In this document: piece after piece, positions 9,251 to 57,716 of the stretch | Numbering within the stretch: position 1 is the first letter of the stretch | Layout of the letters: every line of letters begins with the position of its first letter | From: Mycolicibacterium porcinum | Lineage (GTDB): Bacteria > Actinomycetota > Actinomycetes > Mycobacteriales > Mycobacteriaceae | NCBI GenBank assembly: GCA_002086835.1 | Contig: MVIG01000021.1 | Coordinates: 1-64,000, forward strand | Length of the DNA stretch: 64,000 nt | Direction: 5' to 3' | The notes under the pieces: model-generated | The model's database searches: none | Told to the model about the DNA's origin: nothing | Seen by the model: the letters and a program-made list of their open reading frames with translations, nothing else | Translations under genes and position numbers: made by a program

Positions 9251-9260
9251 CGTCGATGGC

Positions 9261-13804: not shown

Positions 13805-13821
13805 CGGTGGCCACAGATTCT

Positions 13822-13846: not shown

Positions 13847-13863
13847 GTGCCGTTGTCTATGAC

Positions 13864-14349: not shown

Positions 14350-15632
14350 ACCCCGGCCGGCGGCACGACGGAGGTGGTACGCATCGGACCGGCATCCTCC
14401 AGCCGGGTGCGTACCGCCTCGTCGTCTCGACGCCCGACCAGGTACCAGGTGTGCATCAGGCCTTTGCCCTTGACGTCGACATCGCCGCGTTCCTCGAGCA
14501 CGAAATTGTGACTGATGCGCTCATACACATTGTGCGGCACCTGAATTCGCCCCGCCACATCTGTGGTCTCCATACGTGAGGCGACGTTGACCGCGTCACC
14601 CCAGACGTCGTAGAAGAACTTGCGGGCCCCGACGACCCCGGCCACCACGGGCCCGGCGGCCAGGCCGATGCGCAACGGCACCGCCCGGCCCCGCGGATCC
14701 TTGAGGTCGGCGACGGCCTCGGCCAGATCGAGGGCCAGGCAGGCGAGCGCCTCGATGTGATCGGAGCGCGGCTTGGGCACCCCGGCGACCACCATGTAGG
14801 AGTCGCCGCTGGTCTTGACCTTCTCCAGGCCATGCCGGTCCACCAGCGCATCGAGATCGGTGTACAGCCGGTCCAGAAACCGCACCAGCTCGGTTGGGGT
14901 GATGTCGCTGGCCCGTTCGGTGTATCCCGCGATATCGGCGAACAGGATCGAGGCGTCGTCGTATTTGTCGGCGATGATCGTGCGCGACGGCTCCTTGAGT
15001 CGCTGGGCGATCGTGGCCGGCAGAATATTGGCCAGCAGTTGCTCGGACCGCTGATATTCGGCTTCCATCGCCTCTTCCGCGCGGGCCATCTCACGTAACG
15101 ACAACCAGACTGTGGCAAACACCATTACTCCGGCTGAAACCGCCGAAAGGACGAAGCCCGCGGTCAGTGCCCATGGAGGTCCCAGCCCCCGATCGTTGGG
15201 CACCAGAACTTCCAGCACGATCGCGGCAGCCACCGCCAGCGCGGTCAGCGTGCCCGCCAGCACGATGCGCTCGATGCCCAGCACCAGCACCGCAAGCGAC
15301 GCCGCCACGATGAAGTAGAACTGCAGCCCCGAACCGGTCCCGACGACGAAGCACATCGTCGAGACCGACACGTAGGCGAACAGGAAGAACGCCAGGGGCG
15401 CGATCAGTTCGCCGAACCGGTACAGCAGCGGCACCAACAGGAACAACGCGGCAGATCCGAGGTTGACGAAGCCGAACCGCCACATCGGTCCGCCGAGGAC
15501 CAGCTGGAAGACCCCGAATCCACCGGATACCGCAGCCGCGAGGCACGTCGCAATGGTCAACACCCGCAGTCGGCTCGACACGCTCTCGGCATAGTGCCGG
15601 GTGCGGGCCGGAACGCGGTTGTTCAACGCCAT
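14346..15632 (-). CDS. cya: Membrane class III adenylate cyclase, Rv1625c-type
   Basis: This protein makes cAMP from ATP. It has six membrane helices (residues about 22-180), a short coiled-coil/HAMP-like transducer, and one catalytic class III domain (about 220-400). Key residues, numbered from ATG 15632, are metal Asp233 (FADIAGYTER) and Asp277, adenine-selecting Lys273 (KTSGDS), and the transition-state pair Asn349 and Arg353 (GDAVNVASRME). One set per chain means it works as a homodimer, as in Rv1625c. Upstream starts (GTG 15647, TTG 15680) would add 5 or 16 residues. It faces dps2 with overlapping stops. Confidence 0.95.
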   Translation of the reverse strand: MALNNRVPARTRHYAESVSSRLRVLTIATCLAAAVSGGFGVFQLVLGGPMWRFGFVNLGSAALFLLVPLLYRFGELIAPLAFFLFAYVSVSTMCFVVGTGSGLQFYFIVAASLAVLVLGIERIVLAGTLTALAVAAAIVLEVLVPNDRGLGPPWALTAGFVLSAVSAGVMVFATVWLSLREMARAEEAMEAEYQRSEQLLANILPATIAQRLKEPSRTIIADKYDDASILFADIAGYTERASDITPTELVRFLDRLYTDLDALVDRHGLEKVKTSGDSYMVVAGVPKPRSDHIEALACLALDLAEAVADLKDPRGRAVPLRIGLAAGPVVAGVVGARKFFYDVWGDAVNVASRMETTDVAGRIQVPHNVYERISHNFVLEERGDVDVKGKGLMHTWYLVGRRDDEAVRTRLEDAGPMRTTSVVPPAGV

Positions 15633-29156: not shown

Positions 29157-29203
29157 GGGCTAGGAGTTCCCGCAGCCCGCCGCGGCAAACCTCTGTGGTC
29201 AGG

Positions 29204-30025
29204 TCACCGGCGTCCGGCCAGCAGGACTTCGCTGAGGTGGGTGGTGGTCTGGACACCGTCGTCGTAGCCGCCCTCGTCGCCGAGCGCGTTCATGATCGCC
29301 AATGTGTAGCGCTGCTGTGGTCCGGCGAAGCCGACGCTGTTGACCACCCAGCCGCCCTGCTCGAGCGACCAACCGTCCTTGTTGCCGGGATTCATCGCAG
29401 GTCCGGCACCCCAAACGCCCCACTGCTGATTGGTGTCCACGTGCCGAAGCGCATCCACGATGCCGGCCGTCTCGGAGGGGGTGAGGCCGGTCAGGGTGTA
29501 GTTGATCAGCCGGTCCAGATCCTCGGGCGTGGCCTTCTGGAAGCCCCAATAGGGGTAGGTCCGGCTGAATCCGCGCTGCGGTTGCAGCCCGGTCATCCCG
29601 TAGGCCGGGAAATCGGCGTTGAACGCCTGGTGATCGGCACCGCTGTACCGGGTCCACAGGGTGTCGGCGGCATCATCGTCCGACGAGTGCAGCATCGCCG
29701 TCATCAGGGCCCGGTCGGAGTCGGTCAGCGTCACGGTGCCGGCGCGTTGTCTGGTCAGCAGGTCGACCACCATGGCGAGTTTGATCGTGGACGCCGTCCA
29801 CACCTGTTCGCCCGCGTGCGCATTTCGGTAGACGGCGCCCGTGGTGCGGTCCCGCAGGACGTAGCCGACCGTGCCCGGGCGGGAGGTCAGATAGGCGTCG
29901 GCGGCGGCGATGCGTTCGGCGACGTCGCAATCCGTTCCGGCCGTGCAGGCCGCGTGCGCCGATGGAGTGGTGATGCCGCAGGCGGTGACGACGAGCACAC
30001 AAATGCAGAACAGGAGGCGGCGCAT
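29204..30025 (-). CDS. Serine beta-lactamase-like lipoprotein
   Basis: This 273-aa exported serine hydrolase belongs to the class A beta-lactamase/penicillin-binding fold. The signal segment has a lipobox VTAC (Cys16), so it is probably lipid-anchored. The SxxK catalytic motif is S79-T-I-K82. A possible KxG equivalent is NKDGW near residue 213. The canonical SDN and Omega-loop glutamate motifs are not obvious, so it may be a peptidoglycan-related hydrolase rather than a true beta-lactamase. It is divergent from the MBL-fold gene across 50 nt. Confidence 0.82.
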   Translation of the reverse strand: MRRLLFCICVLVVTACGITTPSAHAACTAGTDCDVAERIAAADAYLTSRPGTVGYVLRDRTTGAVYRNAHAGEQVWTASTIKLAMVVDLLTRQRAGTVTLTDSDRALMTAMLHSSDDDAADTLWTRYSGADHQAFNADFPAYGMTGLQPQRGFSRTYPYWGFQKATPEDLDRLINYTLTGLTPSETAGIVDALRHVDTNQQWGVWGAGPAMNPGNKDGWSLEQGGWVVNSVGFAGPQQRYTLAIMNALGDEGGYDDGVQTTTHLSEVLLAGRR

Positions 30026-30075
30026 GAGAGTAGCTTCGCAGGCGTGCGTCGCATTGTCGGCATCGACGGTGGGCG

Positions 30076-32758: not shown

Positions 32759-32936
32759 TCGACCCGATTTGATCTCTTGTATCCGTCCGTCGGGTTGGGC
32801 ATCGTGGCGAGGCTTCTGTACCACCCCTTGAACCCCTGATCAGCGCTCACTCACCACCGATCGGCACGGTCACGTCAACCGCACCCTCGGCCACCCGGTG
32901 CTCGACGCTCTTCGACCGACCGAAAGAACGCATGAC

Positions 32937-34601
32937 ATGCCTCGTACTGCCCTCCGCCATGTCCTGATGACGTCCGCCGCAACCTTGACGGTTGCGGCGG
33001 TGGCCGCCGGCTGCGGAAGCGGGGCGCAGAACGGATCCTCGGGCGACGGCGGCACGCCGGTGAGCGGCGGGTCCATCGTGTACGGCGCCGACCGTGAGCC
33101 GACCTGCCTCGACCCGCACAATTTTGGTGACATGCCGCAGACGTACGTCGCCAGACAGTATCTGGACTCACTGGTCTCCGAACGTCCCGACGGCTCGGTC
33201 GTACCGTGGCTGGCCGATTCGTGGAAGGTGTCCCCGGACGGGCTGGTCTACACCTTTGTGATCCGTTCCGGGGTGAAATTCCACGATGGCACCCCACTGG
33301 ATGCCGCTGCGGTACAGGCCAACTTCGAGCAGATCCTGGATCCGGCCACGCAGTCACAGACCGATACGGGATACCTCCGGCCGTACTACAAGGCGTCTCG
33401 CGCGGTGGATCCGTCCACCTTCGAGCTCACCTTGTCCTCACCGTATTCCGCTCTGCTGCCGGTGCTTTCGCAGGCGTTCTTCGGCATCGAGTCACCCAAG
33501 GCGATGGCCCGCGGGTTGGAGGCCAACTGCCAGTCCCCGGTCGGCACCGGACCGTTCATCGTCAAGCAGTGGATCCGCGGCCAGAGCGTCGAACTGGACC
33601 GCAATCCTGACTACAACTCGGCGCCCCAGGACGCCAAGCATCAGGGACCGGCGTATCTCGAGCACGTCAGCTGGAAGTTCCTCGAAGACGGTTCGGTCCG
33701 GTTCGCGGCGGTGCAGGGTCGCGACGCCGACATCATCTTCAACCCGCCGCCCCAGCAGAAAGCCGCACTGGAAGCCGATCGCAACCTGGTCCTGCAGTCC
33801 TTCACCCATACCGGGCTGCCCAACGGTATTGCGCTGAACACCAGCCACAAGCCGTTCGACGACAAGGCGGTGCGGCAGGCCTTCATCCACGGCGCCAACG
33901 CCGAAGCGGCCGTTCGCAGCGCTTATCTCGGTGTATTCGACTGGGAGCCGGGCCCGCTGTCGTCAACGACGCCCTACCTGCGCGAAGATCTGCGCGACCA
34001 CTACGCACACGACCCGGACAAGGCCAACGCGCTCCTGGATTCCGCGGGATGGACCCAGCGCGATGCCGACGGCTACCGCACCAAGGACGGCCGGCGGCTG
34101 ACCGCACAACTGGTGTACTCGTCGGATCCGGGAGACACGCCGCCCGCCGATGTCACCCTGTTCCAGAACATTCAGGCTGCCGAGAAGCAGATCGGGTTCG
34201 ACGTCGTGCTCAAGCCGCTTCCGGCCGACCAGTACTACGCGGCATTTACGAACAAGGATGCCTACGACGGACTGACCGGCGCGTACTGGAACAGCCCGAC
34301 GCCCGCCGTGCTCTCGATCGTGTACTCCAGCGATTCGCTGAAAGCTGCTCCGGGCAACAACATGTCGTGGGTTTCGGATCCCACGATCGACGATCTGCTG
34401 CACCAGGCAGCAGCGTCGATCGACGTGGAACAGCAGAAGAAACTCTATGGCGAGGTCGAGCAGATCGTTGCCGAGAACGCCTATCACCTCGGGCTGTATC
34501 CGCAGACCACGCGGCTGGTCACCAAGAAACGACTGAAGGACGTCTGGATCGAGCCTTCGGAGGGTGAGCCCGTGCTGCACGACGCCTGGCTGGCGCCGTG
34601 A
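32937..34601 (+). CDS. Peptide/nickel-type ABC transporter substrate-binding lipoprotein
   Basis: This 554-aa solute-binding protein belongs to the SBP_bac_5 (DppA/OppA/NikA) family. The signal peptide ends in lipobox VAAGC (Cys about residue 26). The mature domain has the family start GSIVYGADREPTCLDPHN and the block ADSWKVSPDGLVYTFVIRSG. ATG 32937 was selected because it directly opens the signal peptide. It heads a six-gene operon with two flavin-type monooxygenase genes, which points to uptake of an organosulfur compound or small peptide-like molecule rather than dipeptides. The 178-nt upstream gap holds the inverted pair ACCCGA/TCGGGT. Confidence 0.9.
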   Translation: MPRTALRHVLMTSAATLTVAAVAAGCGSGAQNGSSGDGGTPVSGGSIVYGADREPTCLDPHNFGDMPQTYVARQYLDSLVSERPDGSVVPWLADSWKVSPDGLVYTFVIRSGVKFHDGTPLDAAAVQANFEQILDPATQSQTDTGYLRPYYKASRAVDPSTFELTLSSPYSALLPVLSQAFFGIESPKAMARGLEANCQSPVGTGPFIVKQWIRGQSVELDRNPDYNSAPQDAKHQGPAYLEHVSWKFLEDGSVRFAAVQGRDADIIFNPPPQQKAALEADRNLVLQSFTHTGLPNGIALNTSHKPFDDKAVRQAFIHGANAEAAVRSAYLGVFDWEPGPLSSTTPYLREDLRDHYAHDPDKANALLDSAGWTQRDADGYRTKDGRRLTAQLVYSSDPGDTPPADVTLFQNIQAAEKQIGFDVVLKPLPADQYYAAFTNKDAYDGLTGAYWNSPTPAVLSIVYSSDSLKAAPGNNMSWVSDPTIDDLLHQAAASIDVEQQKKLYGEVEQIVAENAYHLGLYPQTTRLVTKKRLKDVWIEPSEGEPVLHDAWLAP

Positions 34602-35521
34602 GGCGCGCGCTCCTCCGGATCGCCGGGATGCTCGGAGTGCTTTGGGGTGCAGCGACTTTGACCTTCTTGGCGCAGCACCTGATGCCGGGTGATCCGGCGC
34701 AGACGATTCTCGGCGGCGCGGGCTCCAAACCCAGCCCCGAGCAACTGGCAGCGGTCAACGCGCAGTACGGGTTCGACCGGCCACTACTGGTGCAGTACGT
34801 CGACTATCTCGGTGGGCTGCTGCGTGGCGATCTGGGGACCTCGTATGTGCTCAAGCAACCGGTGGCCGACATCATCGGGCAACAGGTGGGACCCACCTTG
34901 GTGCTGACGATCACCGCACTGGTGGCCTCGTGGGCGATTGCGGTGGTGATCACGCTGCTCACCGCGCATCGCAGTCGGCTGCTGGCTGCGGTCGGTTCGG
35001 GTGTGGAGATCGTTTTGGCCGCGTTGCCGCAATATTGGCTCGGCATCGTGCTGTTGGTGGTCTTCGCGTTCCAACTGCACCTGTTCCCGGTCGTCGGCGA
35101 CGACGGGGTCGCCGGCCTGGTGCTGCCGGCGTTGACTCTGGCGCTGCCGCTGGCAGGGTTCCTCGGCCAGGTGACCCGCGACGAGTTCTCCACCGCCATG
35201 GAGCAGCCATTCGCCGTGTCGGCACGCGCGCGCGGAATGAGCGACTGGGGTGTGCGCTGGCGACATGCGTTGCGGCACGCCGTGTTACCTGGTCTGTCCC
35301 TTTCCGGTTGGGCCCTGGGGTCGTTGTTCTCCACGGCTGTGATCGTCGAGATCGTATTCGTGCGACCCGGTTTGGGGCGCATCCTGGTCGACGCCGTCTC
35401 CAAGCAGGACATGCCGGTGGTGGTGGGCGTGACGCTGCTGGTGGCGTTGGTCTACGTGGTGGCCAATCTCTTGGTGGACATCGCGTTCGTCCGGGTCGAT
35501 CCCCGCCTCAGGAGGGCCTGA
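34598..35521 (+). CDS. ABC transporter permease (DppB/OppB type)
   Basis: This is a 307-aa inner-membrane permease. It has the N-terminal family block TFLAQHLMPGDPAQTILGG, YGFDRPLLVQYVDYLGGLLRGDLGTSY, and the EAA loop ARARGMSDWGVRWRHALRHA. GTG start overlaps the binding-protein stop by 4 nt (GTGA). It works with the next gene as a heterodimer. Confidence 0.92.
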   Translation: MRRALLRIAGMLGVLWGAATLTFLAQHLMPGDPAQTILGGAGSKPSPEQLAAVNAQYGFDRPLLVQYVDYLGGLLRGDLGTSYVLKQPVADIIGQQVGPTLVLTITALVASWAIAVVITLLTAHRSRLLAAVGSGVEIVLAALPQYWLGIVLLVVFAFQLHLFPVVGDDGVAGLVLPALTLALPLAGFLGQVTRDEFSTAMEQPFAVSARARGMSDWGVRWRHALRHAVLPGLSLSGWALGSLFSTAVIVEIVFVRPGLGRILVDAVSKQDMPVVVGVTLLVALVYVVANLLVDIAFVRVDPRLRRA

Positions 35522-35522
35522 C

Positions 35523-36389
35523 ATGGCAGTGCGGATCATCGACCGGCCCACCCCAGGATCGGGGCAGAGCGTCTGGGCGGGCGGATGGTTTCGGCCGGCG
35601 GTGTGGATCGCCGGGGCTTACCTCGCGCTGATGCTGGCCTGGGCGCTGGCCCCGTCGCTGTTCACCAGTGAGTCGCCCTATGACACCGATATCGAGGCAC
35701 CACTGCAGGTTCCGTCCTGGGAGCACTGGTTCGGTACCGATGCCTCCGGGCGCGACATCTACACCCGTGTCGTCTACGGCACGCAGAGCTCACTGGCCAT
35801 CGGGGTAGGGGCCACCGCGTTGGCGCTGAGCGTCGCGATCGTGTTCGGCCTGGCTTCCGGGCTGGGTGGCCGACTCACCGACGGCACGATCAGCCGGCTC
35901 CTCGAAGTCGTGCTCGCCCTGCCCGGCATGCTGGTCGCGCTGCTGTTCATCGCGATGCTGGGCCCGGGTGCGGCCACCCAGATCGTGGCTGTCGCGATCG
36001 GTTCGGCCGCCGGGTACGCGCGGATGATCCGGGGGCAGGTGCTGGCAGTGAAGGACTCCGGATATGTCAGCGCGGCAGTCGCTCTCGGGCATCCACCACA
36101 TCGCATCGTCAGCCGCCACATCTTCCCGAACGCGATGCGCCCCCTGGTGGTGCTGGGAACCATGGGCGTGGGTCAGTCGATCGTATGGGCGTCCTCACTG
36201 AGCTTCCTGGGGCTGGGCGTCGCCCCACCGGCACCCGAGTGGGGCGCCATGCTCAACGCCGGACGCGACTTCGTGTCCACCGCGTGGTGGCTGGAAGTGT
36301 TTCCGGGCCTGGCGATCGTCGGCTGCACCCTCGCAGTCACCGTCGTCGGCCGCTACCTGCAGCAACGTCTGGAAGGACGGCTGACATGA
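35523..36389 (+). CDS. ABC transporter permease (DppC/OppC type)
   Basis: This is the second permease, 288 aa. Landmarks are HWFGTDASGRDIYTRVVYG near residue 62, EVVLALPGMLVALLFIAMLGPG, and the EAA region AAVALGHPPHRIVSRHIFPNA. It starts 1 nt after the preceding stop and overlaps the ATPase by 4 nt. Confidence 0.93.
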   Translation: MAVRIIDRPTPGSGQSVWAGGWFRPAVWIAGAYLALMLAWALAPSLFTSESPYDTDIEAPLQVPSWEHWFGTDASGRDIYTRVVYGTQSSLAIGVGATALALSVAIVFGLASGLGGRLTDGTISRLLEVVLALPGMLVALLFIAMLGPGAATQIVAVAIGSAAGYARMIRGQVLAVKDSGYVSAAVALGHPPHRIVSRHIFPNAMRPLVVLGTMGVGQSIVWASSLSFLGLGVAPPAPEWGAMLNAGRDFVSTAWWLEVFPGLAIVGCTLAVTVVGRYLQQRLEGRLT

Positions 36390-38092
36390 CCGAGGTATTG
36401 CCCGCTCGGGCTGCCGGCGGCGAGCAGCAGCCGACTGACCGGCTGGTGGAAGTCTCCGGTCTCGAAGTCGCCTTCGGCGCCGGCCGCCACTGCCACCAGG
36501 TGGTCCACGGGATCTCCCTGCACGTCGATGCCGGGGAATGCCTGGCTCTGGTCGGCGAATCCGGGTCCGGCAAGAGCGTGACCGCACGCACCCTGCTGGG
36601 CCTGACCGGTGCGGGTCCGGCATCCTCGGTGCAGGTGCGCGCGGACCGCCTTGACGTCGGGGGCGAATCGGTACTGGGATACCGCGACCGCGACTGGCGT
36701 GCGGTGCGCGGCAAGAAGGTCGGTTTCGTGCTGCAGGACGCCCTGGTATCGCTGGATCCGCTGCGCAGCGTGGGCCGCGAGATCGCCGAGACGCTGCGAC
36801 TGCACCGGTTCGGCAACCGCGCCCGACGCTCGGAGCGGGTGATCGAACTGCTTACCGCCGTGGGTGTTCCGGATCCATCGCTACGAGCCCGGCAGCTGCC
36901 GCACGAACTGTCCGGCGGCCAACGCCAACGTGCGTTGATCGCATCGGCGATCGCGCTGGATCCGCCGCTGCTCATCGCCGATGAGCCCACCACCGCGCTG
37001 GATGTCACCGTGCAGGCCCAGATCCTCGATCTGCTGTCGGACATGAAAGACCGTGGCACCGGCCTTCTCGTGATCAGCCATGACCTCGCTGTGGTGAGCC
37101 GATTGGCCGACCGGGTGGCGGTGATGCGCGACGGCCGTGTGGTGGAGCAGGGTCCCGTGGCCCAGGTGCTCTCGGCGCCGGCGCATCCTTATACGCAGTC
37201 ACTGCTCGATGCGGTACCCGCGGCCCACCGCAAGGGCACTCGATTGTCGACCACGTCGCCGCGACCGGCGCATCCGGTGACCCGCAAAGCCCCGCCCGCC
37301 GACGGGATTCTTTTGCGGGCAGAGGGTTTGGTGAAGAGGTTCACCGGGCCCGACGGCGTGTCCCGCACCGCGGTGGACGAGGTGTCGTTCACTCTCGGGG
37401 TCGGCGAGACGTTGGGCATCGTCGGCGAGTCGGGATCGGGTAAGACCACCACGGCGCGTCTGGCTCTGGCCCTGCTCGAGCCCGACGAAGGCAGCGTGCT
37501 CCTGGCAGGGGAGCCATGGAGTCAGGCACCTGAATCTGAACGAAGGCCCCGGCGTCGCCGGATCTCAGTGGTGTACCAGGATCCGCTGGGTTCCTTCGAC
37601 CCGCGCTGGACGGTGCGCCGGATCATCTCCGACGCGCTTCCCGCCGAACGGTTCTCGGACCCCGAAGCGCGTCGGCGTCGCACCGAGGAGCTGCTCACCG
37701 ACGTGGGACTGGCTCCAGAGCATCTGGAGCGCCGGCCGCTGTCGCTGTCCGGCGGTCAGCGGCAGCGGGTTGCGATCGCCCGGGCGCTGGCTCCCGAGCC
37801 GGATGTGATCGTCTGCGACGAGCCGGTTTCCGCACTCGACGTGACCATTCAGGCGCAAGTGCTGGATCTGCTGACCGACCTGCAGGACCGGCTTCGACTG
37901 TCCTACCTGTTCATCTCGCACGACCTCGGGGTCATCCATCACATGGCCGACCGGGTTCTGGTGATGCGGCAGGGCCGCGTCGTCGAATCCGGGCCGGCCG
38001 CAGATATCTTCGCCGATCCGCAGGATCCCTACACCCGTGAACTGCTCGCCAGTCTGCCGACCGGCGAGCCCGAACCCGTGGCCGGAGGCTGA
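36386..38092 (+). CDS. Fused double ABC ATPase (DppD-DppF type)
   Basis: This 568-aa protein carries both nucleotide-binding domains of the importer in one chain. Domain 1 (about residues 20-270) has Walker A GESGSGKSV, signature LSGGQRQRALIASAIAL and Walker B LLIADEPTTALDV. Domain 2 (about 310-560) has [25 protein letters not shown] and VIVCDEPVSALDV. Each ends with the C-terminal peptide-transporter extension around HPYTQSLLDAVP and DPYTRELLASLP. Fusion of the two ATPases is common in this transporter class in actinobacteria. Confidence 0.94.
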   Translation: MTEVLPARAAGGEQQPTDRLVEVSGLEVAFGAGRHCHQVVHGISLHVDAGECLALVGESGSGKSVTARTLLGLTGAGPASSVQVRADRLDVGGESVLGYRDRDWRAVRGKKVGFVLQDALVSLDPLRSVGREIAETLRLHRFGNRARRSERVIELLTAVGVPDPSLRARQLPHELSGGQRQRALIASAIALDPPLLIADEPTTALDVTVQAQILDLLSDMKDRGTGLLVISHDLAVVSRLADRVAVMRDGRVVEQGPVAQVLSAPAHPYTQSLLDAVPAAHRKGTRLSTTSPRPAHPVTRKAPPADGILLRAEGLVKRFTGPDGVSRTAVDEVSFTLGVGETLGIVGESGSGKTTTARLALALLEPDEGSVLLAGEPWSQAPESERRPRRRRISVVYQDPLGSFDPRWTVRRIISDALPAERFSDPEARRRRTEELLTDVGLAPEHLERRPLSLSGGQRQRVAIARALAPEPDVIVCDEPVSALDVTIQAQVLDLLTDLQDRLRLSYLFISHDLGVIHHMADRVLVMRQGRVVESGPAADIFADPQDPYTRELLASLPTGEPEPVAGG

Positions 38093-38094
38093 CC

Positions 38095-39465
38095 ATGACC
38101 CGACAGATTGTGCTCAACGCGTTCGACATGAACTGTGTCGCCCACATCGTGGCAGGCACCTGGCGACACCCCGAATCGCAGGCAGTGCGCTACAAGGACA
38201 TCGATTACTGGCTGGATCTGGCCAAAGTGCTCGAGCGCGGACTGTTCGACGGGTTGTTCATCGCCGACGTGCTCGGGATCTACGACGTGTACGGGGGTGG
38301 CCCGGCGGCGGCCCTGCGCTCGGGCGCCCAGGTGCCGGTGAACGACCCGCTGCTGGTGGTGCCCGCAATGGCCACTGTCACGAAGCACCTCGGCTTCGGC
38401 GTCACCGCCGCCACTTCCTTCGAACACCCGTATTCGTTTGCCCGCCGGATGTCGACCCTGGACCACCTCACGAAGGGCCGGGTGGGGTGGAACATCGTCA
38501 CCGGGTATCTGGAGAGCGCCGCGCAGAATCACGGCCTCGACACGATCACCCCGCACGCCGATCGCTATGACATCGCCGATGAGTACACCGAGGTGTTGTA
38601 CAAGCTGTGGGAGGGTTCGTGGGAGGACGACGCGGTCGGTGCCGCGCCGGACCGGGCCCACTACGCCGATCCGGCCAAGGTGCACCCGATCGCACATGAC
38701 GGCAGGCATTTTCGAGTCCCAGGCATCCATCTGTGCGAGCCATCGCTGCAGCGGACGCCGGTGTTGTACCAGGCGGGGGCGTCGAGCCGCGGCCGGCAGT
38801 TCGGTGCCGAGAACGCCGAGGTGATCTTCATCGGCGCCCCCACCAAGGAGATCCTGCGCGAGGCAGTGGCCGACATCAGAGCCCGTGCCGCGGCGGCCGG
38901 ACGCGACCCGTACGACGTGAAGATCGTCAACGGCCACGTGGTGGTCACCGGATCGAGCGAGCAGGCCGCACAGGCCCGCTATGACGAGTTCCGCCGCTAC
39001 ACAGATCCCGAAGGTGCCCTGGCACTGTGGTCCGGATGGCTGGGAACCGACCTGTCCCGCTTCGATCTCGATGATCCGGTCGCGGTCACCGACAACGAGT
39101 TCCTGAAGTCCTCGGTGGAGATGTTCGGCCAGGGGCAGTGGACTCTCCGCGACTTCATCGACGCGAAAGCCATCGACGCCGAGGGCGGCTTCACCGTCGG
39201 CTCGCCGAGCCAGGTGGCCGACGAGTTGCAGGAGTGGGTGGAGGAGACCGACGTCGACGGGTTCAACCTGACCAATGTGATCACCCCGGGCTCCTTCGTC
39301 GACTTCGTCGATCACGTGGTGCCGGAACTGCAGCGGCGCGGCGTGTACAAGACCGCGTATGACGAGGGGACCCTGCGCCACAAGCTGTTCGGGCGCGGGG
39401 CCCGACTGCCCGAGACCCACCGCGCCGCCCGCTATCGCCACGCCAACCAGGAGGCAATCCGATGA
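38095..39465 (+). CDS. FMN-dependent monooxygenase, NtaA/SnaA/DszA family
   Basis: This 456-aa luciferase-like flavin monooxygenase uses reduced FMN supplied by a separate reductase. The family pattern is visible in GTWRHPESQA, FIADVLGIYDVYGG, and AATSFEHPYSFARRMSTLDHLTKGRVGWNIVTG near residue 110 (cut by domain, not contiguous catalytic sites). Relatives desulfurise sulfones or cleave EDTA/NTA. It starts 2 nt after the ABC ATPase and overlaps the next gene by 4 nt, so uptake and oxidation are one operon; the substrate is probably a sulfur- or nitrogen-containing organic compound. Confidence 0.9.
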   Translation: MTRQIVLNAFDMNCVAHIVAGTWRHPESQAVRYKDIDYWLDLAKVLERGLFDGLFIADVLGIYDVYGGGPAAALRSGAQVPVNDPLLVVPAMATVTKHLGFGVTAATSFEHPYSFARRMSTLDHLTKGRVGWNIVTGYLESAAQNHGLDTITPHADRYDIADEYTEVLYKLWEGSWEDDAVGAAPDRAHYADPAKVHPIAHDGRHFRVPGIHLCEPSLQRTPVLYQAGASSRGRQFGAENAEVIFIGAPTKEILREAVADIRARAAAAGRDPYDVKIVNGHVVVTGSSEQAAQARYDEFRRYTDPEGALALWSGWLGTDLSRFDLDDPVAVTDNEFLKSSVEMFGQGQWTLRDFIDAKAIDAEGGFTVGSPSQVADELQEWVEETDVDGFNLTNVITPGSFVDFVDHVVPELQRRGVYKTAYDEGTLRHKLFGRGARLPETHRAARYRHANQEAIR

Positions 39466-40679
39466 CATCGACCACTGTTCAGCCCGTCACATACGGATCC
39501 GAGCGGCTGGCCAAGCTGATCGCGGCGATCGGCGAGGGTGCGCTCGAGCGCGAGCGCACCGGTGAACGGCCCTTTGCCGCAATCGAACTCATCCGGGCCG
39601 AACGGCTGGGAGCCCTGCGGGTTCCCAGTGCCGACGGTGGCGGCGGGGCGACACTGCGCGAATTGTTCGCTCTGGTGATCGAATTGGCGACCGCCGACGT
39701 GAACGTCGCCCACATCCTGCGCGGCCATTTCTCTCATGTGGAGGAGCGGCTGCGACTCGATGCCGAGCAGCGTCGCCGGGTGACCGAGCTGGCGCTGTCC
39801 GGTGCCATCGTGGGCAACGCGTCGACCGAACTGGGCTCCACTCCGGCCGGCGGATTCACCTGGCAGACCAAACTGACCCGCGACGGTGACGGGTACCGGC
39901 TCAACGGACGGAAGTTCTTCACCACGGGCACGCTGTACGCGGACTACGCCGAGGTGCTGGCCAGCAATCCGGAGGGCGCGTCGGTGATCGCCCTGATTCC
40001 CACCGACCGGCCCGGCTTCACGGTGATCGACGACTGGGACGGCATGGGCCAGCGTGCCACCGGGACGGGGACCGCGACATTCCAGGACATCGCGGTGTCC
40101 GCCGATGAGGTACTGGAGTTCGCCCCGCCGAACGCCGACGACGAAGAACAGGCGCTGTACCTGTCCGGCGCGTTCTTCCAGCTGTACGTCACGGCGCTGG
40201 AAGTCGGTGTGCTGCACGCGCTCCGCGACGACGCGGTGGCGCATGTCCTGCAACGTCCACGCAGCTTCGCCTGGGCGCCCAACCCCACGGCGGCCGATGA
40301 CCCGCTGCTGCAGCGGGAGATCGGTGAGATCGCGGCCGCGGCCTACGCCGGACAGGCCACGGTGCTGGCCGCCGCCGACGCACTCGCGACGGCCTTCGAA
40401 GCCGACACCGCGGGGACCGATCCGGGGCTCGAACTGGCCCACGAGGCGTCCGCGCAGGCCGCGGCGGCGAAGATCGTCGTGGACGGGCTGGCGCAGAAGG
40501 CTGCGTCGCAGATCTTCGATGTCGGCGGCGCGTCGGTGGTGCGGCAGTCGTATCTGCTCGATCGGCACTGGCGCAACATCCGGACGCTAGCCTCACACAA
40601 CCCGGCGTCATACAAGGCCCAGGCGCTCGGTGCTCTGCACGTGCGGGGCACCCGACTGCCGGGCAGCGGCTATTTCTGA
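39462..40679 (+). CDS. Acyl-CoA dehydrogenase-like flavin monooxygenase (SfnB/DszC type)
   Basis: This 405-aa protein has the acyl-CoA dehydrogenase fold. The N-terminal helical part has IRAERLGALRVPSADGGGG, the middle part has GNASTELGSTP and KLTRDGDGYRLNGRKFFTTG, and the C-terminal helices include QIFDVGGASVV and DRHWRNIRTLASHNP. That terminal HWRNIRTLASHNP pattern is typical of DszC/SfnB-like monooxygenases rather than true dehydrogenases. It probably oxygenates the substrate brought in by the operon's importer, alongside the FMN monooxygenase. No flavin reductase gene is adjacent. Confidence 0.88.
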   Translation: MTSTTVQPVTYGSERLAKLIAAIGEGALERERTGERPFAAIELIRAERLGALRVPSADGGGGATLRELFALVIELATADVNVAHILRGHFSHVEERLRLDAEQRRRVTELALSGAIVGNASTELGSTPAGGFTWQTKLTRDGDGYRLNGRKFFTTGTLYADYAEVLASNPEGASVIALIPTDRPGFTVIDDWDGMGQRATGTGTATFQDIAVSADEVLEFAPPNADDEEQALYLSGAFFQLYVTALEVGVLHALRDDAVAHVLQRPRSFAWAPNPTAADDPLLQREIGEIAAAAYAGQATVLAAADALATAFEADTAGTDPGLELAHEASAQAAAAKIVVDGLAQKAASQIFDVGGASVVRQSYLLDRHWRNIRTLASHNPASYKAQALGALHVRGTRLPGSGYF

Positions 40680-40703
40680 CCCGGCCGCGGTGTCGCGTCG
40701 GTG

Positions 40704-41171
40704 TCAGCGGCGAAACACCACCCAGCGCATCGCGCTGTACATGAAGAGCGCCTCGCAGCCACCGGCGACGATCCGGGCCAGGCGGTACTCGACCCCCAAC
40801 GCCGCCAGCCCGCTGGAGACCCCGAGGATGAACGCCAGGTAGTTGATCACGACCGCCAGGACGTACACCGTCAGCTGGGGACCCACCGCGGCGTGCGAGC
40901 GGAAGTTCAAGGTCCGGTTCAGGTAGTACGCCAGGCCGAAGGCGACGGCGTATCCGACGGTCACCGCGACCGGTAGGGGTATCCGGAGCGCGCCGTGGAG
41001 GGCGGTCAGGATCGCCAGGTCGACGCCGAAGGTGAAGGTGTTGATCACCACGAAGCCGAGAAAGGTCGGGGCCACAAGAGAATCGAGCGGCGACGGCAGG
41101 CGCCGAACCACCTGGACGCAGATCCGGTGAAACCGGTCCGCCGTCGACACCCGGACGGGTTCGCTCCGCAC
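40704..41171 (-). CDS. GtrA family membrane protein
   Basis: This 155-aa protein has four membrane helices and the GtrA pattern: FLGFVVINTFTFGVDLAILTAL near residue 38, the YLNRTLNFRS motif after helix 2, and a conserved end MRWVVFRR. GtrA proteins are thought to flip polyprenyl-linked sugars or help transfer them in cell-wall glycan assembly. GTG start. It converges on the sulfur operon with 24 nt between stops. Confidence 0.87.
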   Translation of the reverse strand: MRSEPVRVSTADRFHRICVQVVRRLPSPLDSLVAPTFLGFVVINTFTFGVDLAILTALHGALRIPLPVAVTVGYAVAFGLAYYLNRTLNFRSHAAVGPQLTVYVLAVVINYLAFILGVSSGLAALGVEYRLARIVAGGCEALFMYSAMRWVVFRR

Positions 41172-41233
41172 CTGACCACCGTGCCATCGGAAGGTGTCAG
41201 AACCGTGAGCACAGAGCGAACGGCACTCGATGC

Positions 41234-41740
41234 TTACTCCGATATCTCGACTCCCTGGTAGCTGGTCAGCATGTCGGTGCTCGGCAACGCCATCTGCAGG
41301 TACAGGTCGATATGGCGGATCTTGTCGTCGGCGGTGAACTCGTATACCGAGATCGAGTTGACGACCGACTCCAAGTCGCCCATCTTGGTGCGTTCCTCCA
41401 GCTCGAGGTACACCACCCCGTCAACCTCGTTGACGCGCTTGAACAATCCGTCCCATTCGGAGGCTGAAGCCCAGGTGGTCATGAAATCGAGGTACTGATC
41501 CCAGTTCATCACCTCTTTGAAGTTGCCGATCCGCTCGAACTCATCGGTAGCGACCAGTGATGCCAGAGGTGCCCAGTCCGCCACCCCGAACCCTGGCCGC
41601 TTGGCGCCGTCCACGAGTTGCTTGGTGGTGACTGCGTACTGGACCACCGCCCGACAGCGGCCGGTGTAATCGTCGACAACCTCGCTGACATGTCTCAACG
41701 GAAAACCTCTTCTGTAGTGGTTCGAGACGGGGTCGGTCAT
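41234..41740 (-). CDS. NTF2-fold (SnoaL-like) protein next to Rieske oxygenase
   Basis: This is a 168-aa cone-shaped NTF2-like protein. It is coupled to the oxygenase alpha subunit (4-nt overlap) and has the size and fold class of ring-hydroxylating dioxygenase beta subunits, so it is probably the structural partner. The sequence is closer to SnoaL-type proteins than to classical beta subunits. The core shows FTADDKIRHIDLYLQ near the C-terminus. It lies under the operator between the oxygenase and the TetR gene. Confidence 0.8.
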   Translation of the reverse strand: MTDPVSNHYRRGFPLRHVSEVVDDYTGRCRAVVQYAVTTKQLVDGAKRPGFGVADWAPLASLVATDEFERIGNFKEVMNWDQYLDFMTTWASASEWDGLFKRVNEVDGVVYLELEERTKMGDLESVVNSISVYEFTADDKIRHIDLYLQMALPSTDMLTSYQGVEISE

Positions 41741-43095
41741 GAGTTCAGGCCGGCCGATCCCAGATATTTGTCGACGACCGAGTGGAAGTGCGCGATCACG
41801 ACTTCTTCCTTGACCAGCGCCATGTGGTCCAGCGCGGTGTTGCGCAACCCGATCTGCTGGCGTGGCATCTGTTCGTAATCTTGTTGCAGTGCTTCGAAAT
41901 ACTTGTAGCTGCCGGCCTCGTCGACCACAATCGGCTCGGCAGTGAACGCGGCCTTCATCTCATCGGGCAGCCACATGTAGCTGGCGACGTGCCAGATGCA
42001 CCGGTTGGGGTCACCGTCGGGGTGGGGGAGCGCCATGATGATGGTCGCCTCACCGGCGCGGATGGTCATGAAGAAGTTCGGGAACCACACCCACCCGTGG
42101 TTGTCGCTCATCTGGGCATCGGTCAGCCCACTGACGTCAAGGCCCATGCCGGTCAACGTATCTCGCGTTGCCCTCTGGAGCAGCATGCGTGCCGTCACTC
42201 CCTCCGGGAAGTTCAACGAGCCGTCATCGGCGCGGTACTCGGCGACCAGTTCCTGGAACCGGGGGAGCACCGCGACGGTGGACGGGAAGGTCTCGGGCAG
42301 GTCCATGATTCCGTCGACTTGATGCTCCGGCGTGGCGCCCACGACATCGAAGGGCGCCATCGACACACTATGCCGCTCGAAGAACCGGTACCGGCTCGTG
42401 GCGGGGTCGATGTTGATCACCCGCAACAGCTGCGGGTGGATGCCGTCGATGTGGTAGCCCTCTTGGAAGGCATCGAGGACGACCTTCCAGTTGCAGTCGA
42501 TGGCCTCGGTCACGTCCATCACGGTGACCATTTCTTCGAGGTGGTAGGGCGCGAGCATGTTCGCGACCTCCGCGCCGATGAAGTCGGCCAACGGCGCCGC
42601 ATCCGGATCGGGATTGAGGAAGACGAAACCGGCGAACGTATCGACCGCGACCTCGATCAACCCGTGCGTTTGCTTGTCTATCGGCCCGGCCAGAGCCTCG
42701 CGGAGCATGCCCTTGAGGCGCCCGTCCAGGTCGTAGGACCACAGGTGGTACTGACACAGGAAGCCGCGCTTGGCATTTCCGCGCGCTTCTCGGCACAGCA
42801 CGTTGCCGCGGTGCCGGCAGGCATTGACAAACGCGCGAAGCCTCTCGTCCTTGCCGCGCACGACGATGTAGGACTGATCGAAGATCCGGTACTGCTTCCA
42901 ATCGCCCGCCTTGGTCAACTCGTCGACCCGGCCGACCACCTGCCAGACCTTCTTCCAGATCGAATCACGTTCCTGGTCAACGAATTCCGGAGCGATATAG
43001 CGACTGGTCGGAATCTCCATCCGATACGCGTCGGGGGCGATGTCATCCAGGGCGGTGGCGTACTCGACCCAATCTCCGGGGCGTGCTGTCTGCAC
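41737..43095 (-). CDS. Rieske non-haem iron oxygenase, alpha subunit
   Basis: This 452-aa aromatic-ring-hydroxylating oxygenase catalytic subunit has a Rieske [2Fe-2S] site at Cys93-x-His95 and Cys114-x2-His117 (NACRHRGN and FLCQYHLWS). The mononuclear iron site has the histidines in DAFQEGYHIDGIHPQ near residue 210. It would hydroxylate an aromatic or cyclic substrate, with electrons from a reductase not encoded nearby. GTG start. It heads the operon opposite a TetR regulator with a strong tandem palindrome between them. Confidence 0.93.
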   Translation of the reverse strand: MQTARPGDWVEYATALDDIAPDAYRMEIPTSRYIAPEFVDQERDSIWKKVWQVVGRVDELTKAGDWKQYRIFDQSYIVVRGKDERLRAFVNACRHRGNVLCREARGNAKRGFLCQYHLWSYDLDGRLKGMLREALAGPIDKQTHGLIEVAVDTFAGFVFLNPDPDAAPLADFIGAEVANMLAPYHLEEMVTVMDVTEAIDCNWKVVLDAFQEGYHIDGIHPQLLRVINIDPATSRYRFFERHSVSMAPFDVVGATPEHQVDGIMDLPETFPSTVAVLPRFQELVAEYRADDGSLNFPEGVTARMLLQRATRDTLTGMGLDVSGLTDAQMSDNHGWVWFPNFFMTIRAGEATIIMALPHPDGDPNRCIWHVASYMWLPDEMKAAFTAEPIVVDEAGSYKYFEALQQDYEQMPRQQIGLRNTALDHMALVKEEVVIAHFHSVVDKYLGSAGLNS

Positions 43096-43156
43096 GGGCG
43101 GACCTCCTCGATCGAAATGTGGGCGGTGACGTGTCAGTTGTGACTGCGGTCACTAC

Positions 43157-43191
43157 TATACATATCTGTATTTCCAATACAACTATGTATA
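43157..43191. promoter_or_regulatory. Tandem palindromic operator between TetR gene and oxygenase operon
   Basis: Two 14-bp palindromes, ATACATATCTGTAT (43158-43171) and ATACAACTATGTAT (43177-43190), each fit ATACA-N4-TGTAT, with centres 19 bp apart. The whole 35-bp block is itself symmetric about 43174. It lies 62 nt upstream of the oxygenase start and 69 nt upstream of the TetR start, the right place for a repressor acting on both. A matching pair is at 56830-56862. Confidence 0.7.
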
Positions 43192-43259
43192 TCGGCGCGG
43201 TGAGGCGCGCAGAAAGGCCATGTCAACACAAGCGCGCAGACCTTTGACAGGATGGATCC

Positions 43260-53611: not shown

Positions 53612-54472
53612 TCAGATCGGATAGGTGGTGAACTGCTGCAGCAACATCTCCGCGACCTCTTCCGGTTTTTCCTCAGGGAGCCAGTGTGAGGCACCGCGCA
53701 GGGTTTCGAACCGGTAGGGACCGCTGACGTACTTCGCGGTGTCGTACGCGGGTTTGGCGGTGATCGCGATGTCGCGGTCGCTCCAGACGTACAGAGTCGG
53801 CACGGTGATCTTCTGGGCGGTGCCCCCGCCCGAGCCGCTCATCGGCATGGCCCGGTACCAGTTCAGCGCCGCGGTGAGGGCTCCTGCCTCGGTCATGGCC
53901 CGCGCATCACGTTCGGCCGCCTCGGCCGGCAACCCGCTGCGGATCAGGGATTTGGCGATGGCCCTGCCTGTGCCGTCGCGCCCGAGCATGAATCGTTCGG
54001 CCAGCCAAGGTAGTTGGTTGACGTACATGTACCAGGACGCCAGCCCCTGGCGGCTGGTGAGCATCGACCGCAGGAAGGCCCGCGGGTGCGGTACCGACAG
54101 CGCGGACAACGAGGCCAGCCGATCCGGCGCATGCTCGGCCACGCCCCACGCCACCGCGGCACCCCAGTCGTGGCCGACCAGATGCACTCGTTCGGCACCG
54201 CTGGCATCGATCAGCGCGAGGGTATCCTTCACCAGCTCCGATGCGCGGTAGTCCCGGCGGCGAGGCGGCCGTGCACCAGGGGAGTAACCGCGTTGGTTCG
54301 GGGTGAGGCACCGGTAGCCCGCGGCGGTCAGCCGCGACATGATCGGCATCCAGCTGCTGTTCTGCTGCGGGAAGCCGTGCAGCAGCACGACCACCGGGCC
54401 ATCAGCGGGGCCGTCATCGATGACATCGAACACCAGGGCCCCTCGGCGATACTGATCCATACGTTGCATCAT
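53612..54472 (-). CDS. Alpha/beta hydrolase, epoxide-hydrolase type
   Basis: This 286-aa alpha/beta hydrolase has the oxyanion motif HGFPQQ near residue 33, the nucleophile elbow GHDWGA with Asp as nucleophile (about residue 102), a late acid in WSDRDIA and a histidine in GASHWLPEE. An aspartate nucleophile indicates an epoxide hydrolase or haloalkane dehalogenase rather than an esterase. It is upstream of and close to the dehydrogenase gene, suggesting consecutive steps in a catabolic route. Confidence 0.88.
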   Translation of the reverse strand: MMQRMDQYRRGALVFDVIDDGPADGPVVVLLHGFPQQNSSWMPIMSRLTAAGYRCLTPNQRGYSPGARPPRRRDYRASELVKDTLALIDASGAERVHLVGHDWGAAVAWGVAEHAPDRLASLSALSVPHPRAFLRSMLTSRQGLASWYMYVNQLPWLAERFMLGRDGTGRAIAKSLIRSGLPAEAAERDARAMTEAGALTAALNWYRAMPMSGSGGGTAQKITVPTLYVWSDRDIAITAKPAYDTAKYVSGPYRFETLRGASHWLPEEKPEEVAEMLLQQFTTYPI

Positions 54473-54839
54473 GCCAAGCCCGGTGGTGCTGGCGGATCAG
54501 GCGTTGGTCTTTCCAGGAGATGTTGTTGAGCAGGGTCTGCGCCTGACGGTCCACCATTCCGGGGTGGTGACGCTCACCCCGTCCCCGGCGATGCCCGCCT
54601 TGAGTTCCGCACAAATCTGGGGCCCGGTCATGTGGTGCACTTCCCGCCGTACAGACTCCCGCATTGACGAGAGTGGTTGTTTGCCAGTCGATCCCGCCCG
54701 GCAACCCGCTTCAGCGCCCGTGATCTTCCGGTAGCCAAGTTGTGACAGCAACGTGGCGGCGGTCGGGCGCCTGACCGGTTGCAGCGCGTGGACAGATTGC
54801 TGTACCAATCTTCAGGTGGGCGCGGGAAGGATCATCTGA
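54473..54839. other. Gene-poor stretch, possible decayed coding sequence
   Basis: No intact gene is supported here. On the minus strand a 103-codon open frame (54497-54808) and a second frame overlapping its end give fragments, GPQICAELKAGIAGDGV followed by AQTLLNNISWKDQ in the other frame. These could be one frame broken by a single-base shift. The similarity to small secreted DUF732-type proteins is faint. It also holds the upstream region of the MerR-like gene. Confidence 0.3.
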
Positions 54840-55790: not shown

Positions 55791-56099
55791 CTACAGCGGA
55801 ATCCAGGTGCCGAGGAACCAGAAACCCCAGCCGCGTCCGTCACCGGCGGGCATCGGGGTGACCCGTTGGCCATTCCATTCGAACGGCTGGTGATCACGGC
55901 GTCCCGCGTCGATGTCGCGACCGTGCCAATCGTCGGGCCGCGAACCCCGGTCGTCGTGGCGGTCACACTGCGGCGCCCCCGGGCGATCGCAGCCCGGGCC
56001 CGGATCGGCACTGGCCGTGCCGAGGCCGAGACCCAGCAAGCCGGCCATGCCGATTCCCGCCGCCAACGCAGACGCGCCCACGGATTTCTTGAAACCCAT
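55791..56099 (-). CDS. Small secreted protein with terminal WGFWFLG motif
   Basis: This is a 102-aa exported protein of unknown function. The signal peptide (residues about 1-33, ending GTASA) is followed by a Cys/Arg/Asp/His-rich region (two Cys in GCDRPGAPQCD) and a C-terminal aromatic end GWGFWFLGTWIPL. ATG 56099 begins the signal; the AT-rich leader has a GGAG-like site. A similar aromatic end is seen in the 96-aa protein near 58 kb. Confidence 0.75.
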   Translation of the reverse strand: MGFKKSVGASALAAGIGMAGLLGLGLGTASADPGPGCDRPGAPQCDRHDDRGSRPDDWHGRDIDAGRRDHQPFEWNGQRVTPMPAGDGRGWGFWFLGTWIPL

Positions 56100-56234
56100 T
56101 GCTTTACTCCGTTTCTGAACGGTGCGACGCCGGTGCCGCACGGAGAGCAAAGCTATTTCGGCCGGATATGTTTGCCCTGTGTCCCGCGTGGGGGCGGGCT
56201 GTGGGATCGGTAACGAGTTGAAACCGGGCCGTAG

Positions 56235-56756
56235 TTACCAGGTCAGGTTGTGCTTTTCGAAGTGGCGGGCAAGTGCCTCCATGTATTCGTCACCGTGGAA
56301 GGGCCCGCGGGCGCCGATCGCCTTCTCCAGAAACGCCCCGTATTCCTCGTCGTTGACGTAGGTGGACCAGTGGGTTATCTGACCTTCGTCATTGGTGTCG
56401 ATGAAGCTGATCGAATAGAAGCCCATCGTCTCGCCGTCGGCTGTGGTGCCCTCCCAGCGGTAGCGCATGACGAGGCCGTTCTCGGCGGGCCAGAACTTGT
56501 GGTCGACGGGTTTCCAGTCGGGGAAGACCACCGAATAGGCCTTGGCCTCCACGGTGGCGGCCACGTCGAAGGAGGTCGCCACGTCCTTGAGGACGAGCTC
56601 CTGGCCGGCCACGAAGTAGGGCGAGGTGTATACGGCGTCGTCGGTGAATTCCCACTCGTCGTATGACTCGCCTTCCTGGACCTTCCGCAGCACGTACTTG
56701 TCGCGGTAGCTCTCCGCCATCCGGCGGTGTTTGGCGATTCGATCGACCAGATCCAT
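56235..56756 (-). CDS. NTF2-fold (SnoaL-like) protein under tandem operator
   Basis: This is a 173-aa NTF2-like polyketide-cyclase/dehydratase-fold protein. Conserved segments include DAVYTSPYFVAG near the start, VMRYRWEGTTADGE in the middle and ISFIDTNDEGQITHWSTYV. No catalytic residues can be assigned. The gene starts downstream of an ATACA-N4-TGTAT pair matching that of the TetR/oxygenase locus, so it is probably part of that regulon. It lies downstream of an HsaD-like hydrolase but with its own promoter gap. Confidence 0.82.
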   Translation of the reverse strand: MDLVDRIAKHRRMAESYRDKYVLRKVQEGESYDEWEFTDDAVYTSPYFVAGQELVLKDVATSFDVAATVEAKAYSVVFPDWKPVDHKFWPAENGLVMRYRWEGTTADGETMGFYSISFIDTNDEGQITHWSTYVNDEEYGAFLEKAIGARGPFHGDEYMEALARHFEKHNLTW

Positions 56757-56829
56757 TGCGGTCCTTATTCATTGAGGGAGCGACAGGGCCAGGCCGGGCG
56801 GATCATGTGGCGTGGCACACACGATCAAT

Positions 56830-56862
56830 ATACATACCTGTATCTCGGATTCAAGACTGAAT
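56830..56862. promoter_or_regulatory. Tandem palindromic operator upstream of NTF2-fold gene
   Basis: ATACATACCTGTAT (56830-56843) differs from the first site of the TetR locus at one base. A second palindrome, ATTCAAGACTGAAT (56849-56862), lies 19 bp away centre to centre, the same spacing. It forms part of the larger GGATTCA-AGAC-TGAATCC repeat. The pair is 74-106 nt upstream of the minus-strand gene start. Confidence 0.65.
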
Positions 56863-56870
56863 CCGAGCGT

Positions 56871-57716
56871 CTAGATCCGGGTCAAGAAGCCGAGCACGGT
56901 CTGCTCGAAGGCCTCCTTGGCCTCGATCATCGCCCAGTGTCCGCAGTTCGGGAACACGTGCAGTTCGGCATTGGGGATCGTCCGCATGGGGATCAGCGCC
57001 ATGTCGAGTGGGCTGACGCGGTCATCGCGGCCCCAGGTCAGCAGAGTGGGAGCGGCCACCTTGTGCATCTGCGCCCACGGCAACGGCGCGTCCGACGCGC
57101 GCATGGCCGCCATCATCCCGGCGAACGCCGCCTTTCCGTACATCCGCTTGGCCGCGGCCAGCGTCGCCGGGTCGGTCGCCAGCTCCCACCGTTGTTCGAT
57201 GAGTTCGTCGGTGACCAGTGCGGGATCGAACACCATCGAGTTCAGCCAATCGATCAGGCGCTGGCGGGTCGGGTCCTCGGTGAACTCCTGCAGCAGCCGG
57301 ATGCCTTCGCTGGGACCCGGGCTGAAGATATTGGTGCCGATGCCGCCGATGGTGACCAGCTTGCCGATTCGGTCCGGCTGGCGGATGGCGAAGTTGATGC
57401 CCACGCCGCCGCCCATCGAGTTTCCGACGATGTCCACGCGGTCGACACCCAAGGCATCGACGAACGGGCCTACCACACCCTGGGCGGTGACCATCGGATG
57501 CCCGCCGAGGTCGTCGGTGACGCCGAATCCCGGGAATTCCAGGATCAGGCAACGGAATTGCTGGGCGAAGGTGGGCAGTATGCCCCGGAAGTTGCGCCAG
57601 CCGGTCACCCCGGGCCCTGAGCCGTGCAGAAACAGCAGCGCCGGCCCCTCACCGGTGTCGTAGTACCGCAAGACGCCCGCGGATGTCTCGATCTCCCTCA
57701 GTTCCAGCTCGGTCAT
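56871..57716 (-). CDS. Alpha/beta hydrolase, meta-cleavage-product (HsaD/BphD) type
   Basis: This is a 281-aa hydrolase. The oxyanion block LFLHGSGPGVTGW (about residue 28), nucleophile elbow GNSMGGGV (Ser near 99), acid WGRDDRVSP and catalytic histidine NCGHWAMIE form a complete triad. These patterns, especially HGSGPG and GNSMGG, are typical of C-C bond hydrolases acting on ring-cleavage products of aromatic or steroid breakdown. It fits the nearby Rieske oxygenase functionally. No extradiol dioxygenase is visible in the window. Confidence 0.9.
   Translation of the reverse strand: MTELELREIETSAGVLRYYDTGEGPALLFLHGSGPGVTGWRNFRGILPTFAQQFRCLILEFPGFGVTDDLGGHPMVTAQGVVGPFVDALGVDRVDIVGNSMGGGVGINFAIRQPDRIGKLVTIGGIGTNIFSPGPSEGIRLLQEFTEDPTRQRLIDWLNSMVFDPALVTDELIEQRWELATDPATLAAAKRMYGKAAFAGMMAAMRASDAPLPWAQMHKVAAPTLLTWGRDDRVSPLDMALIPMRTIPNAELHVFPNCGHWAMIEAKEAFEQTVLGFLTRI

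Follow-up and report, generated by a model that had tools for sequence, protein, structure and literature searches.

Genes at the Two Loci

The window, by which we mean the whole stretch of 64,000 nucleotides of Mycolicibacterium porcinum DNA that was analyzed, contains two loci that carry the same kind of tandem operator (Table 1). At the first, a gene for a TetR-family regulator, assigned by its TetR_N helix-turn-helix domain (PF00440), is divergent from a gene 164 bp away whose product has both the Rieske and the Ring_hydroxyl_A domains of Rieske ring-hydroxylating oxygenase alpha subunits. The regulator reached no equivalog cutoff of the named TetR subfamilies in NCBIfam (ScbR, FasR, MtrR, and others), the best score being 67.2 versus 150 bits for ScbR_bind_reg. 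At the second locus, the start of the N2 gene lies 73 bp downstream of the operator, in agreement with the earlier note, which had placed this site before a second NTF2-fold gene.

Table 1. Features of the two loci and their positions in the window
Feature	Position	Strand	Basis or remark
N1, predicted NTF2-fold protein, 168 aa	41234..41740	-	Downstream of Rieske gene; AlphaFold pLDDT 89.2
Rieske oxygenase alpha subunit, 452 aa	41737..43095	-	PF00355 56.6 bits, PF00848 84.0 bits, both above gathering
Putative Rieske promoter	43155..43182	-	TTGTAT (43177-43182), 16-bp spacer, TATAGT (43155-43160); read from sequence
Tandem operator between TetR and Rieske genes	43158..43190	.	Palindromes 43158-43171 and 43177-43190
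TetR-family regulator, 205 aa	43260..43877	+	PF00440 57.8 bits, cutoff 24
N2, predicted NTF2-fold protein, 173 aa	56235..56756	-	Putative target of second operator; AlphaFold pLDDT 92.7
Putative N2 promoter within operator	56827..56854	-	-35 TTGAAT (56849-56854), 16-bp spacer, -10 TATATT (56827-56832)
Tandem operator of N2 promoter	56830..56862	-	Proximal palindrome 56830-56843, distal palindrome 56849-56862, 19-bp period
HsaD-like alpha/beta hydrolase	56871..57716	-	NF045632 272.5 bits; upstream neighbor of operator; judged outside regulon

The structural models place both N1 and N2 in the NTF2-like fold. The top Foldseek matches of N1 are an OCP C-terminal homolog and the ketosteroid isomerase (KSI) and limonene epoxide hydrolase (LEH) folds, those of N2 are PhzA/B and SnoaL-like proteins, and the listed matches of the two have TM-scores of 0.38-0.75. 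Neither protein reached a curated family in Pfam or NCBIfam; at the Pfam gathering score N1 had no match, and N2 scored 16.5 versus 27 bits for SnoaL_2. A Ring_hydroxyl_B beta subunit was likewise not recognized beside the alpha subunit when N1 and N2 were held to the Pfam gathering score, and a profile of N2 matched a solved beta subunit with E = 0.58 at best. The two proteins are not close paralogs, BLASTP detecting no similarity between them.

A small same-strand ORF (55791-56150) follows N2 in the window. Among the ten closest relatives, the gene after N2 is on the same strand in seven (30-371 bp on) and convergent in three. The closest relatives in our searches were M. senegalense, M. septicum, and M. 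peregrinum, which we take to represent the M. fortuitum group. A block encoding a peptide-type ABC transporter, a luciferase-like monooxygenase, and an acyl-CoA dehydrogenase occupies 32767-40703. The transporter block (32.7-40.7 kb) was considered as part of the module and rejected: it is absent beside the Rieske gene at three loci (L251, L252, and L254), and it is therefore a variable block.

Tandem Operators

Each operator comprises two 14-bp palindromes with a period of 19 bp, and the two operators are 13,672 bp apart, so that the matching tandem operator at 13.7 kb with identical spacing described in the earlier note was found as claimed. The one-base difference reported there also holds: the N2-proximal palindrome is ATACATACCTGTAT, and its counterpart at 43158-43171 is ATACATATCTGTAT. 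The second unit at the TetR-Rieske locus, ATACAACTATGTAT, is a perfect ATAC/GTAT palindrome; that on the N2 side, ATTCAAGACTGAAT, is ATTC/GAAT and weaker. The N2-side operator thus matches at 14 of the 16 tandem positions, its distal palindrome being off at two of eight.

The motif is rare. With up to three mismatches the 14-mer has four matches in the window, a number reached in none of 100 shuffles. The genome (6,960,672 bases in 102 contigs, the window being in contig 17) contains just three copies of exact ATACA-N4-TGTAT, at 43158, 43177, and 56830, all within these two loci; one mismatch adds 10 places, against a reversed-pattern control of six in all per strand. The full tandem pattern with at most two of 16 mismatches is found at three places, namely 43158 (none), contig C92 at 95633 (one), and 56830 (two), and a third mismatch admits three more (control, two per strand).

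A matrix built from 42 Rieske-side operators of at least 13/16, with the M. fortuitum group excluded, scores 50.9 at 43158 and 39.3 at 56830, the next site in the window scoring 1.3. A wider matrix, restricted to sites of at least 15/16, gives 53.2 and 40.7, with -3.6 for the next site and a maximum of 5.4 over 100 Markov-3 windows. Since the sites for both matrices were picked by the tandem pattern itself, these scores measure likeness, not discovery. In a scan of 1.37 Mb, 45 of the 46 matches to the wider matrix fall in TetR, Rieske, or N2 promoters, the exception (L144) lying inside an apparently over-extended Rieske gene call.

Across 12 aligned rows of the M. fortuitum group, the 16 operator positions are identical in 11.9 of 12 on average, compared with 9.5 for the other operator positions (two positions in the -35 left out) and 8.7 downstream. 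Part of this conservation could be promoter conservation.

An inverted repeat at 56844-56867 (10-bp stem, 4-nt loop, -20.3 kcal/mol, z -2.3) has the distal palindrome as its core. It is strong when taken alone and was considered as a terminator or RNA element; no T tail was found after it, and its outer five stem pairs are peculiar to the window, with zero to two of them present in 11 related rows. Lacking a T tail, the hairpin does not account for the operator site.

Promoters within the Operators

The putative N2 promoter is the only promoter-like match that a scan found in 56700-57000. The putative Rieske promoter has the same geometry, at identical offsets to its operator, and was not reported by the generic promoter scan. 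Among the named loci, the -35 offset is occupied by TTG in 41/42 operators on the Rieske side and 19/26 on the N2 side, as compared with one of 35 operators read toward the TetR gene; the corresponding counts for TANNNT at the -10 offset are 22/42, 23/26, and 1/35, the -10 being away from the exact offset in about half of the Rieske-side operators. The structural-gene promoters thus appear, from these sequences, to be largely built into the tandem operator, an arrangement that fits repression by occlusion.

Distribution in Relatives

A scan of named genomes yielded 73 loci, with N2 called in 69 (none in L189, L192, L194, or L197) on gene maps from a home-made caller whose start sites can be off; locus L128 seems to come from the same record as genome G021. 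N2 lies behind a Rieske gene and/or N1 at 40 of the 69 loci, stands alone at 28, and follows an unlabeled gene at one (L195). In 34 of the 40 operons that include N2, the first gene is preceded by a tandem operator of at least 13/16. That leaves L144, whose operator falls within a gene call that seems over-extended, L153 at 12/16, and four Rhodococcus loci at which no such operator was found. Where N2 stands alone, an operator at this threshold lies upstream in 26 of 28 cases, the exceptions being distant metagenome-assembled genomes (L190 and L196). At eight loci (L136, L140, L141, L142, L145, L150, L152, and L155) a TetR gene lies between a Rieske-side and an N2-side operator.

In all ten of the closest named relatives (N2 97-98% identical), this TetR is present at 91-100% identity and the Rieske gene at 90-99%, and in nine of them TetR and N2 share one contig, roughly 10-15 kb apart. 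Homologs of TetR and of the Rieske protein are present in 18 of 18 genomes tested. Of 118 genomes of the genus, 26 have both TetR (counted at 60% identity or more) and N2, five have TetR only, five N2 only, and 82 neither, these being raw counts that ignore kinship. In the five N2-only genomes, N2 is 52-53% identical and there is no TetR of at least 60%.

The arrangement in Mycobacterium sp. ACS4331 (L136 and L257) is a compact form of the split arrangement in the window: one TetR gene (60%) separates N2 (88%) from a Rieske gene (84%), N1, and a P450 gene, and there are two operators.

One relative, G049, lacks both matching units. Its contig (C9:50000-66000 and 64001-84000 were compared, keeping pieces above 150 bp and 68% identity) is collinear with the window over approximately 24.8-57.7 kb except for 32767-43244, which holds the Rieske gene, N1, their operator, and the transporter block, itself variable, and 56229-56877, which holds N2 and its operator. 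Lesser gaps fall at 29194-30073 and 54461-54667, and there is no match past 57737. The TetR gene (93%) is retained, and no operator was found beside it. A further, more distant TetR-Rieske-N2-N1 operon (L176) means that G049 is not free of the system.

TetR Types and Operator Specificity

Related TetR sequences were collected at a minimum of 42% identity and 150 aligned residues; of these 122, a tree was built from 116, the remaining six being short or interrupted by stops. One branch (100/100) parts 82 proteins with an R-type recognition helix (GYTRGAIY) from 34 of K-type (GYTKGAIY-like). R-type genes are associated, with few exceptions, with ATACA-type operators, and K-type genes with ATACC or ATACT operators, often ending in GGTAT and having a weaker second unit. 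Recognition helix and operator type therefore co-vary. The second site in the window (56830) is ATACA, the kind associated with R-type regulators, and the TetR at 43260 is the only R-type protein among the matches listed from its own genome.

The only other close paralog among those matches (51%) is encoded on contig C92, is of K-type, and has its own operator; the next is just 33% identical. The C92 site (95633-95665; L069, L089, and L113) is a tandem operator of the ATACC...GGTAT class, and the TetR gene there has a divergent neighbor and a Rieske-like gene close by. This locus is a parallel system with changed specificity. Two further loci, L092 and L093 (genomes G043 and G004), have a recognition helix in which Y is changed to A (GYTRGAIASHF) together with shifted operators (ATACGA.. 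and ATCCG..), a possible natural specificity switch.

Probable Joint Control of the Rieske Unit and N2

The TetR at 43260 very probably controls both stretches jointly, as a ligand-relieved repressor of a two-unit regulon, given that one kind of paired site is present at the two promoters. The earlier note had proposed that this regulator may govern the Rieske oxygenase and the N2 gene and tie in the adjacent hydrolase. Its first two targets are upheld in silico by the operator and promoter geometry, the operon fusions, the TetR genes found between two operators, the co-occurrence, and the absence of both matching units from G049; its third is not.

In the mechanism that we propose, each tandem operator would hold two TetR dimers side by side, one per palindrome and perhaps bound cooperatively. 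With the -35 contained in the distal palindrome and the -10 running into the end of the proximal palindrome, bound repressor would shut out RNA polymerase. The operator at 43158 would in this way silence Rieske and N1, and probably TetR as well, and that at 56830 would silence N2 and perhaps also the ORF at 55791-56150. A substrate-like ligand would release both operators, so that N2 would be made together with the oxygenase and might act jointly with it. Co-regulation suggests that N2 works with the oxygenase, and many relatives carry N2 inside the Rieske operon.

The main rival to a shared regulon is that the operator at 56830 belongs to another TetR paralog that once stood beside N2 and has gone from the lineage of the window, leaving a site that is now either a relic or the target of some other TetR with its gene elsewhere. 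R-type paralogs of 59-62% identity do stand beside N2 in some relatives, and the operator may therefore have evolved for them: a paralog of 59-61% is divergent beside N2 at L131, L136, L137, L140, L145, and other loci, six such sequences form a supported clade, and strain CBMA 247 has an R-type TetR beside N2 in addition to the TetR of the window. These N2-side paralogs, however, share the GYTRGAIY helix of the window's TetR and the tandem architecture of its operators, so that cross-recognition by the window's TetR is expected. No such paralog was found in nine of the ten close relatives, yet the operator there is kept at 14/16, and among the own-genome matches listed nothing closer than the 33% protein stands behind the K-type C92 paralog. 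In genome G128 (L136), moreover, a single TetR of this kind is the only match, and the Rieske unit and the two operators adjoin it. We regard this explanation as improbable for the window; across lineages, these sequences suggest, the regulator in charge of N2 may have changed.

It is more doubtful still that the regulon also takes in the HsaD-like hydrolase, which scores below the NCBIfam HsaD equivalog cutoff (272.5 versus 400 bits for NF045632). The gene is adjacent to N2 and on the same strand, and some members of the M. fortuitum group keep the two close together (L126, L128, L129, L130, and L135, and, with a TetR between, L131). The hydrolase gene is, however, upstream of the operator and promoter and transcribed toward them, the operator lying between the hydrolase stop and the N2 start. 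In four of the ten closest relatives (L127, L132, L133, and L134) no such hydrolase was seen beside N2, though the operator is present, on gene maps that cover positions 4500-15500 of each locus and reach approximately 2 kb upstream of N2 for L132. G049, conversely, keeps the hydrolase (93%) without a matching N2 and operator. The suggestion that this gene is tied in is thus unsupported.

We give marginally less credence to the view that the site is conserved merely as a -35/-10 promoter, with incidental palindromes and N2 outside TetR control. Both hexamers do fall within the operator, but the ATACA of the proximal palindrome sits in the promoter spacer and is nearly invariant, and stand-alone and operon copies of N2 are split by operator position as a regulon predicts. 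Furthermore, Rieske-N2-N1 operons at L116, L117, and L118 lack the motif (at least 13/16) and occur in genomes without a close TetR match. A chance resemblance between two AT-rich palindromes, for which the degenerate second palindrome might speak, can be dismissed in view of the genome-wide rarity, the shuffles, and the conservation in relatives.

Comparison with Known Systems

As gene regulation the system is ordinary: TetR repressors with a local and one remote target are a known kind. M. tuberculosis Rv3161c is an oxygenase of the Rieske type. Its gene is repressed by the TetR-like Rv3160c, whose binding is inhibited by the small molecule C10 (PMC7810876). As far as the described features allow a comparison, Rv3160c resembles the window's TetR in binding palindromes such that the -10 would be blocked, and differs in that its sites are inner and outer inverted repeats of 12 and 8 bp within a 50-bp stretch at one operon, whereas the window has two equal 14-bp palindromes with a 19-bp period; the passages describing Rv3160c contain no second target (PMC7810876). 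AtuR and RdmA of Pseudomonas are likewise TetR-family repressors of a catabolic cluster, with two inverted-repeat sites beside the -10 in one divergent promoter region, but these sites are 13 bp long, 40-42 bp apart, and of other sequence, and the passages concerned describe no second remote locus (PMC9973270). Two TetR-family dimers bind DNA cooperatively in QacR, as proposed here, but as a tetramer on one 28-bp palindrome, not on two separate ones, according to the account in PMC4482099.

By a rule of thumb for the family, a divergent gene less than 200 bp away is a likely target (PMC3511530). The TetR-Rieske pair, at 164 bp, fits this rule, which does not predict a target 13.7 kb off. The words "tandem", "Rieske", and "ATAC" have no occurrences in the text of a survey of mycobacterial TetR regulators, the motif logos of which lie outside that text (PMC4482099). 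No paper on this regulon was found among the titles and abstract beginnings listed in searches of open-licence PMC papers, which is not proof of absence in print.

The shared operator links a gene without a curated family, N2, to a defined oxygenase system. The operator is also short and specific within the genome, where 7 Mb contain three exact palindromes, so that the prediction can be tested at little cost. Natural rearrangements among the relatives (fused, adjacent, split, and missing) are useful for asking how a regulon keeps its coherence as genes are relocated and the repressor is possibly exchanged. The practical weight of the system is limited for now.

N2 Lineages and Origin of the Set

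In the N2 tree, proteins from Rieske-N2-N1 operons (51-58% identical to N2 of the window) form one large clade. N2 of the window belongs to another (73-98%), with genes that stand alone or come last in Rieske-N1 operons. The Rieske protein of the window groups with those of M. palauense, Mycolicibacter, and ACS4331; the operons of the first two carry the first kind of N2, and ACS4331 has the second kind beside its own TetR. Taken together, the Rieske grouping and the kinds of N2 suggest that the N2 of the operon was replaced by one of another lineage.

A joint reading, which we offer tentatively and hold at somewhat less than even credence, is that mycobacteria and their relatives possess an undescribed oxygenase system, made up of a Rieske alpha subunit and two unrelated NTF2-fold proteins. 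The M. fortuitum group would have lost the operon N2 and would use a distant N2 lineage in trans, and the set would have stayed co-regulated, despite exchange of TetR paralogs, because all units keep one tandem-operator code.

Two records have lineage labels that may be at odds with their content. A 4.1-kb contig (L156) from a metagenome-assembled genome called Acidobacteria bears N2 (78%), N1, and a 14/16 operator, and is perhaps mis-binned mycobacterial DNA or a transfer. The other, L197, is titled Rhodococcus sp. JCM 9791 under the lineage Cyanobacteriota and encodes a Rieske protein nearly identical to that of L172; contamination or mislabeling is the probable cause.
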